Of a DNA stretch of 64,000 nucleotides, positions 47,580-51,284 are shown in pieces. A program made the position numbers and the translations under genes. Source of the DNA: Haloarcula sp. DT43 (GTDB taxonomy: Archaea; Halobacteriota; Halobacteria; Halobacteriales; Haloarculaceae); contig NZ_JAYMGZ010000004.1 in assembly GCF_037078405.1 (NCBI RefSeq), forward strand, positions 310,001 through 374,000, in the 5' to 3' direction. Below the pieces are notes generated by a model. The model was not told where the DNA came from. It was given only the letters and a program-made list of their open reading frames with translations, and made no database searches. Positions within the stretch are counted from its first letter, which is position 1, and each line of letters begins with the position of its first letter.

Positions 47580-49193
47580 TCAGTTCCCCTCTGCCTGCCC
47601 GCTCCCGTCCGTCACGGCCGTCGGGTCCGGGGACCCCACCGCCGCCGAGAGGTCGGCCCCGTTCGACGCGGCAAATTCGAAGGCGTCGAGCAGTTCCGAG
47701 AGGTCCTCGGCCTGGTCCGAGAGGTGGACCACGTCGTCGGTCACGCCCTCGATGGCCGCAGTCTGCTCCTCGGCCGCCGCGGCCGCGGTCTGTGCGCCAG
47801 AACTCGTCCGCTCGGTCATCGTGTCGAACTCCTCGACCATCGCCACCACTTCCTCCGCCGAGGCGGCCTGTTCGTCGGTCGCGTCGTCGACCGACTGGAT
47901 GCCGCTGTTTACCTCCTCGACGTGGTCGAGGATATCTTCGAGGACACCGATGGTCTCGTCGACCGTCTCCAGGCCGTTGTCGACGCGCTCGTCCATCTCG
48001 TGGATGCCGTCGACGGCCTCGTCGGTCGACCCCTGAATCGTCTCGATGCGGTCGGCGATGCGCTGGGTCGCCTCGCCGGTCTCCTGTGCGAGGCCCTTGA
48101 TTTCGTCGGCGACGACGGCGAAGCCTTCGCCGGCCTCGCCGGCGCGGGCGGCCTCGATTGAGGCGTTCAGCGCCAGCATGTTCGTCTGCTCGGCGATGTC
48201 CTCGATGACGCGGACGATTTCGCCGACCTGCTCCATCTCGTCGTCGAGCGACTCCACGTTGTCGATGGTCGACTCGGCCTGGCGCTCGATGGCCTCCATC
48301 TCGGATTTGGCCTCGGTCACGCGCTCGCTCCCGACGGACCCGAGTTCGGACGCCTGCGCGGACATCTCCGCCACCTCGTCGGTCGAGGAGGCTATCTCCT
48401 CGACGGTCGCCGACAGGTCGGTCATCTCGTCGGTGACCTGCCTGACGTTCTCGTGTTGCTGGTCGGTGTTCGAGGCGATTTCCTCGACGTTGTCGCTGAC
48501 CTCCCGGCTCGCGTTCCGGACCTCCTCGGCGCTGGCGCTGAGTTCGTCCGTCGAGTCGTCGACCTGCCCGGCGAACTGAGTGACCGTGGTGAGCGTCTCC
48601 GAGAGCGTCTCCATCATGTCGTTGAACGCCGCCGCGATTTCGGTCATCGCCTCGGTCCGGCTCTCGGGGTCCATCCGCTGGGTGAAGTCCCCGTCCGCGG
48701 CCGCGTGCATCGTCGTGCTGAACGACTGGGCCTTCTCCCGGAGGTGCTCGTTCAGGTCTTCGGACGCCCGCTTCGCCTGCTCGGCGTCCTGCCGGGCCGC
48801 CTCCGCCTGCTGTTTGGCCTCCTCGGCCTCCTTCCGTTGTTTCTCGGCGACCTCGCGCTGTTCGACCGCCTCCGCGCGCTGGTTCGCCGCCTCCTGTGTG
48901 GCCGTCTTGAGGTCATCGATGGTGGCGATGGTCCCGGTTGAGGAGATGGCGACGACGCCGACGAGGACGGCCAGCAGCGAGGTGCCCAGCGCGTCCATTA
49001 TCGCGCCGGCGACGCCGACCCACTCCAGGAAGACGACGCCGGTCCAGAGGAGTCCGAGCGCCGCGGCGAACGAGAAACTCGCCCAGAACCCCGAGTCGAG
49101 GTCGGTCTCGCGGTAGGTCTTGACGCCCAGCGCCACCGTCGCGGCGTAGGCGGCGACCGCGACGGAGTCCGCGAGGATGATAGGCGCGCTCAT
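47580..49193 (-). CDS. Methyl-accepting chemotaxis transducer (Htr-type)
   Basis: The 537-aa protein has two or three membrane helices in residues 1-90 with only tiny external loops, then a HAMP-like/coiled-coil region (about 95-170). The MCP signalling hairpin contains [20 protein letters not shown] and [13 protein letters not shown], the CheA/CheW-binding tip. Glutamate/glutamine-rich repeats should be methylation sites. It lacks a periplasmic ligand domain, so it must receive its signal from the membrane or from a partner. The start overlaps the stop of the small membrane protein gene by 4 nt. Confidence 0.91.
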
Positions 49194-49540
49194 GGCTCTG
49201 GCCTCCCGCCGTCGGCGGCGACTTCCGGCCCGTCCGTGTCAGCCGCCTCGGAGCTGCCCTCGTCGTCGCCGAGGACCTGCTTCCGGCGCACGTACGCCGC
49301 AAACAGGAACGCGAGGCCCGACCCCATCAGCCCGAGGTAGTGCTCAGCGTAGTTGAGCACCGTGCCGAGAAACAGGTTCTCGACGTTGGTCACGACTGTC
49401 GCAAGGACCAACAGCACGTACCCGACCACGAACAGTCGGGAACTCCGTCGGTATCGCAACAGCACCGGGACGAGCCCGATAAGCGCGATAATCGGTAATA
49501 CAGCCTTGTTTGGGTCTAAGGCGGCCAGGCCGGATTGCAT
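49190..49540 (-). CDS. Small three-helix membrane protein coupled to the chemotaxis transducer
   Basis: The 116-aa protein has three predicted helices (about 15-30, 38-56 and 66-85), then an acidic Ala/Asp/Glu tail. The ATG at 49540 is chosen over a TTG at 49558; an AT-rich element (49559-49573) lies at TATA distance, suggesting a leaderless mRNA. The stop overlaps the transducer start (ATGA), so the two are made together. The arrangement recalls sensor-Htr pairs such as sensory rhodopsin/Htr, but it has no retinal-binding lysine motif that I can see. Confidence 0.76.
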
Positions 49541-51056: not shown

Positions 51057-51284
51057 GTGAGCAAGATAAAGGTGTCACTCCCAGACCAGGTCGACTCGGA
51101 CATCCAGCGACTCGTCGAACAGGGCGAGTTCCTCAACCGCGACCAGGCCGTGGAAGACCTCCTGAAGCGAGGGATTTCGGCCTACAACACCACGACGGAG
51201 GAGACCGAGACGCTCGACGAAGAAATCTTCGACCAGACGGCCTCCGAACAGCAGGACCCCGCGATGCAGGACGACTTCCTCTAG
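51057..51284 (+). CDS. CopG/ribbon-helix-helix protein (DUF7120-like)
   Basis: The 75-aa protein starts at a GTG. It has the RHH fold: beta-strand KIKVSLPDQVD, two helices with VEQGEFLNRDQAVEDLLKRG, then an acidic tail. It resembles the haloarchaeal DUF7120 CopG-like family. The RHH proteins bind DNA as dimers and may control a nearby gene such as the divergent MFS transporter. The stop overlaps the convergent gene's stop by 4 nt. Confidence 0.8.
   Translation: MSKIKVSLPDQVDSDIQRLVEQGEFLNRDQAVEDLLKRGISAYNTTTEETETLDEEIFDQTASEQQDPAMQDDFL

Follow-up and report, generated by a model that had tools for sequence, protein, structure and literature searches.

A small three-helix membrane protein strictly paired with a three-helix chemotaxis transducer in haloarchaea: a probable membrane receptor split over two genes

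The window, a stretch of 64,000 nucleotides from Haloarcula sp. DT43, was found to contain the gene of a small membrane protein directly before, and overlapping with, the gene of a chemotaxis transducer. The small gene and the second gene are a genuine two-protein membrane module and represent a new family pair, for which no description or name was found in the open-access literature searched by title and abstract. Because a small gene encoding three helices lies directly before a transducer that has three membrane helices itself, one receptor is probably split over the two genes. A joint split membrane receptor is the best explanation of the sequence comparisons and of one structure model, and we put its probability at roughly two in three.

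The gene pair and its predicted topology

The features of the pair are as follows; L007 is the locus whose structure model is described below.

49190–49540, minus strand: gene of the small three-helix membrane protein (P0001, 116 aa; ORF call, ATG at 49540, stop ending at 49190)
49457–49513, minus strand: small protein helix 1, residues 10–28 (hydropathy; borders transferred from the L007 model)
49382–49447, minus strand: small protein helix 2, residues 32–53, ending in the invariant TNxE (hydropathy, L007 model, conservation)
49379–49390, minus strand: invariant T51 N52 x E54 of the small protein (41/41 loci)
49262–49366, minus strand: small protein helix 3, residues 59–93, starting near the invariant EH (hydropathy, L007 model, conservation)
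49340–49345, minus strand: invariant E66 H67 of the small protein (41/41 loci)
49190–49193, minus strand: ATGA overlap (4 nt) of small-gene stop and transducer start (read from the sequence)
47580–49193, minus strand: chemotaxis transducer gene (P0002, 537 aa) with an N-terminal three-helix membrane domain (ORF call and MCPsignal)
49107–49193, minus strand: transducer helix 1, residues 1–29, with invariant D9 (hydropathy, L007 model, conservation)
49020–49094, minus strand: transducer helix 2, residues 34–58, with invariant W37, W50 and E57 (hydropathy, L007 model, conservation)
48894–49004, minus strand: transducer helix 3, residues 64–100, continuing into a cytoplasmic coiled coil (hydropathy, L007 model)
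48600–48719, minus strand: HAMP-like segment, residues 159–198 (PF00672, 20.7 bits, below the Pfam cut-off of 25)
47817–48365, minus strand: MCP signalling domain, residues 277–459 (PF00015, MCPsignal, E 3e-43)

An earlier note on this DNA had described a transducer almost devoid of an extracytoplasmic part, with a start overlapping the stop of a small three-helix gene, and both observations were borne out. The aligned N-termini showed three hydrophobic segments instead of the usual two, and the outside loop between transducer helices 2 and 3 was only about 5–15 residues long, which leaves next to nothing outside the membrane. Both ORFs lie on the minus strand, and the ATGA at their junction likely couples the translation of the transducer to that of the small gene. 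In both proteins, mean counts of Lys and Arg place the helix 1–2 loop and the C-terminus inside and the N-terminus and the helix 2–3 loop outside, with a mean of 2.3 such residues inside versus 0 outside for the small protein.

The pair is flanked by an MFS transporter gene upstream and a family 2 glycosyltransferase gene downstream (Pfam), neighbours that a comparison of neighbourhoods showed to be common to close relatives only. Small-gene relatives at 83% identity were found in Haloarcula mannanilytica and Har. salina. Near the MFS transporter gene, a gene for a small, ribbon-helix-helix-like DUF7120 protein (51057–51284, plus strand) was also restricted to neighbourhoods of close relatives.

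P0001 showed no match over the curated cut-offs of Pfam or NCBIfam. Neither did it match any rhodopsin in Pfam, and with 116 aa and three hydrophobic helices it agrees with the non-retinal partner that had been proposed earlier. No match was found in plasmids, and the comparison with PHROGs gave no result. Among viral contigs, 23 pattern matches were obtained, none of which was judged a relative, and a fused profile run against PDB sequences gave KCNQ1 as its best match (E 0.029), which was judged chance. hhalign detected no homology of the small protein with the transducer N-terminus; the two are alike in having three helices and a Glu that ends helix 2.

Pairing across haloarchaea and exchangeable outputs

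A search with P0001 among 292 haloarchaeal genomes from 77 genera of the class identified 40 genomes with a total of 42 strong matches, all at E 7e-15 or better. A profile built from 23 small proteins recovered the same 42 matches in the same number of genomes, representing 18 genera, and a separate profile of the first approximately 100 residues of 23 second genes gave 42 matches in these same 40 genomes. In all 42 cases, more than chance would give, the gene immediately following the small gene on its strand was a homologous second gene. At E 0.001, neither profile detected a small gene or a partner standing by itself in the 292 genomes, in searches that score part of the first-look candidates and may miss very diverged solo copies. 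Small genes occurring frequently on their own, which the earlier note had named as an argument against its proposal, thus amounted to 0 among the 42 matches. Eight further, weak P0001 matches (E 0.0018–0.0095, in frames of 186–816 aa) were not recovered by the profile search and were attributed to chance.

The spacing between the two genes was −8 to +3 nt in all of the first 30 loci, and about −20 to +6 nt between the ORFs of the other 12 where both starts were clear. The second gene was a transducer in 40 of the 42 loci, as judged by blastp alignment over the signalling region; in one haloarchaeal genome (G285, locus L060) it was a histidine kinase gene with HATPase_c and PAS domains, and in another (G284, L052) it was broken. 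When 37 neighbourhoods were compared, clustering showed the small gene and its partner in 35 loci each; no other family was present in most loci, and no third gene was conserved across genera. When the gene sets picked from these neighbourhoods were searched with the profiles, 35 contained the small gene and 36 the partner. Since the pair members are still found in this way, the shortfalls of the clustering are due to the gene picker.

A tree of 40 transducers mixed the families, and one genus (g1) was found to have two versions of the pair, both present in a single genome (G102). This tree suggests that the pair moves horizontally as a unit. For covariation between transducer residue 58 and the Gly motif of the small protein, no significance was reachable with three changes per trait.

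Wider profiles run on 344 genomes of the phylum revealed diverged pairs in another, small archaeal class. Four small genes were found in 3 of the 11 genomes of this class, and the gene after each of them is a matching three-helix gene that lacks an output domain. These second genes encode 96–97 aa in genome G351 and in one G340 copy and about 95 aa in the other G340 copy, and G340 contains a further diverged second gene (L158). The second gene of G317 (L079, G317:C2:27995-28279) has one in-frame TGA, which may reflect a broken copy, a sequencing error or recoding. In addition, a diverged small gene in G302 (E 3.5e-5) overlaps the gene of a 325-aa histidine kinase, which has a hydrophobic N-terminus and a partner-like ILEW motif and showed no match to the partner profile; this locus was counted as a pair by position and motif only, the sequence match being that of the small gene alone.

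The pair is thus kept with an MCP domain, with a histidine kinase or with no output, and the conserved unit is a two-protein module with exchangeable outputs. The output-less pairs of the distant class and the kinase pair of G302 place this module outside chemotaxis too, and we infer that the minimal, output-less form is the older one. As to the earlier proposal of a two-component membrane sensor, it is the best reading of the sequences, and pairing was strict in 42 of 42 loci, but the small protein appears tied to a three-helix membrane domain and not to transducers as such, as the G285 kinase and the output-less pairs indicate.

Weak matches of the wider profiles in G032, G297, G344, G403, G463, G488, G519, G569 and G571 were classed as chance or unresolved, the loci inspected being those of G571 (L151), G344 (L168), G519 (L169) and G297 (L170). 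A match in G528 sits in a 409-aa frame and was judged to be chance. In the non-haloarchaeal class, three-helix gene pairs in G317 (L093, 7284–8463) and G340 (L092) were observed beside a Roadblock/LC7 gene, between genes resembling those of aspartate tRNA synthetase and SMC (both named by eye); in G317, a second pair with a diverged gene of the small type flanks the Roadblock gene on its opposite side.

With the broken G284 locus left out, Y41, T51, N52, E54, E66, H67, G70 and G75 of the small protein and D9, W37, W50, E57 and G60 of the partner were invariant in all 41 remaining haloarchaeal loci. E54, E66-H67, D9 and E57 are predicted by the topology to lie near the outer ends of helices. 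In the diverged minimal pairs, E66 of the small protein was kept in 4/4 and E54 and H67 in 2/4 each; on the partner side, W37 was kept in 3/3 and E57 in 2/3, and D9 was replaced by Glu in 2/3. The conserved polar residues near the outer helix ends point to a putative outward site common to both proteins.

Structure models and comparison with known systems

Some loci have both genes in one reading frame, and ignoring the stop of the small gene yields a single chain that AlphaFold can model. For the L007 chain (54 rows, 11 of them paired), a model with a pLDDT of 87.9 and a pTM of 0.82 was obtained, in which both halves lie in a single six-helix bundle with a loose linker. A second query, L023, with a linker of about 10 residues and four closely related paired rows, gave a pLDDT of 84.9, a pTM of 0.51 and no such bundle. 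Query, linker and paired rows were all changed together, and the L023 run therefore neither confirms nor refutes the L007 bundle.

A Foldseek search with the L007 model gave no match at E ≤ 0.001, the best rows being GPCRs (E 0.016). In VIA-align, 8oyy_B, a designed soluble GPCR-like protein, was matched over its whole length (Z 14.8, rmsd 3.6, 186 aligned residues) and the 49 entries ranked below it, GPCRs with few exceptions, had Z-scores of 12.4–13.9, values to be read against the about Z 13 that helical bundles reach without kinship. Since each half begins outside and the targets are matched from their first helix through to their last, the model would correspond to helices 1–3 and 5–7 with helix 4 missing. 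That the fold is indeed GPCR-like without helix 4 is doubtful on the strength of this model. Rather unlikely, too, is the wider proposal that a split GPCR-like receptor, with helices 1–3 in the small protein, helices 5–7 in the transducer N-terminus and no helix 4, is an old archaeal module that became connected to chemotaxis arrays, to histidine kinases and, via DUF7521 pairs, perhaps to gene regulators, with an outward pocket of acidic and His residues between the chains.

Sensory rhodopsin and Htr consist of a complete seven-helix receptor beside a transducer with two membrane helices. The present pair resembles them in having a membrane-embedded partner and a transducer that would take its input through its membrane helices, and to that extent the sensory rhodopsin-Htr logic suggested earlier applies. 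It does not extend to a seven-helix receptor: the three-helix partner matches no rhodopsin, and the transducer, with three helices instead of two, supplies half of the helices itself and may be exchanged for a kinase or a protein without output. The sensory rhodopsin-Htr complexes are reported to be 2:2 (PMC3274258).

In Halobacterium salinarum, Htr7 (OE3473F) and Htr17 (OE3436R) are given three transmembrane helices and no signal in Table 2 of PMC3579733, and no partner is named in the part of that paper dealing with them. By locus tag, Htr7 is a neighbour of CosT (OE3474R). In G018 and G127, the pair was found to converge on a transducer of 810–812 aa (HAMP and MCP domains shown for G018), which in G018 adjoins an OpuAC lipoprotein, corresponding to the CosT-CosB order. 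From gene order and helix number alone, Htr7 of H. salinarum would belong to the pair family. A Haloferax volcanii protein called Htr7 in PMC10869688 (HVO_1999) is reported there to be more abundant in rods than in disks. BasB-BasT and CosB-CosT are likewise two-gene arrangements of receptor and transducer, but BasB and CosB are putative periplasmic-type substrate-binding proteins (PMC3579733), whereas the partner described here is a three-helix membrane protein.

A further arrangement was found in the window's own genome (L157, 1447–2409; contig C1, about 64.9 kb), where two three-helix genes that overlap each other come after an HTH_20 gene; the downstream one encodes a DUF7521 protein (PF24365, E 1.3e-14), and the upstream one gives a sub-threshold DUF7521 match. 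The same arrangement was noted in L156, and the two loci possibly represent a paired three-helix module wired to transcription. In DUF7521 pairs the regulator is a separate gene, whereas here the output is fused to the membrane domain. Neither P0001 nor the 23 small proteins and 23 transducer N-termini matched DUF7521 in Pfam. With hhalign, the transducer N-terminal profile showed a weak link to DUF7521, with probabilities of 64–69% against two members, and 0.4–0.6% after five look-alikes, whose DUF7521 status was unchecked, had been added.

A joint receptor and its alternatives

As a joint receptor, the small protein and the three-helix N-terminal domain of the transducer would form an obligate membrane hetero-oligomer with both N-termini outside, possibly of 2:2 stoichiometry by analogy with SRII-HtrII. 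In this six-helix sensor, the conserved acidic, Asn and His residues near the outer face would bind or titrate a small signal; our guess would be a cation or proton, or else a small cationic solute. The helix movement caused in this way would travel along transducer helix 3 into the long coiled coil and, via the HAMP-like segment, reach the MCP signalling domain, with CheA and archaellum reversal as the next steps. Against a joint receptor stand the L023 model, which places the halves poorly, and the partial conservation of the outer residues in the minimal pairs. Besides, the same gene order would result if the small protein were a helper or an anchor, that is, an assembly factor or stabiliser of the three-helix domain of a transducer that senses alone. 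Strict pairing and translational overlap would look identical in that case, but the polar residues near the outer helix ends are among the most conserved of the small protein, pairing persists although the outputs differ widely, and in the L007 model both halves belong to one bundle, so that we regard such an accessory role as unlikely.

An alternative that overlaps with the joint receptor and differs in the signal is that membrane energization, in the form of membrane potential or proton motive force, is sensed by the pair instead of an external solute. This would fit the lack of an extracytoplasmic domain and the charges located inside helices or at their ends, and MpcT provides a precedent as a membrane-potential transducer (PMC3579733, Table 2), similar, as far as its description goes, in being a membrane transducer with a signal that needs no outside ligand. 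However, MpcT is listed there with two transmembrane helices and without a named partner, unlike the three helices and the partner gene found here, and the predicted topology puts the invariant residues near the outer face rather than in mid-membrane; sensing of the energy state therefore stays a tentative, minority reading. Derivation of the pair, as a split remnant, from a single-chain seven-helix sensor domain, either 7TMR-DISM or HisKA_7TM, is improbable. Of the 23 small proteins, 18 weakly matched 7TMR-DISM_7TM (best E 9e-5) and one distant small protein matched HisKA_7TM at 0.046, but P0001 itself reached 15.5 bits against a 7TMR-DISM_7TM cut-off of 29, and hhalign gave profile probabilities below 1% against 30 haloarchaeal HisKA_7TM domains (within-family control, 100%). 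We give hardly any credence to adjacency as a by-product of shared operon inheritance with no functional coupling: the pair seems from the tree to move between families as a unit, which would itself keep neighbours together, but the complete absence of solo copies from the 292 genomes, the spread of the pairs over 18 genera, the lack of any other kept neighbour and the persistence of pairing with different outputs all oppose it.

In H. salinarum, only eight of 18 transducers are given an assigned function in PMC3579733. A conserved two-gene module with exchangeable outputs offers the pair, rather than a single gene, and a set of named residues as a target. If the split receptor fold is true, these proteins would represent a multi-helix receptor built from two three-helix halves, one of which is fused to the output.
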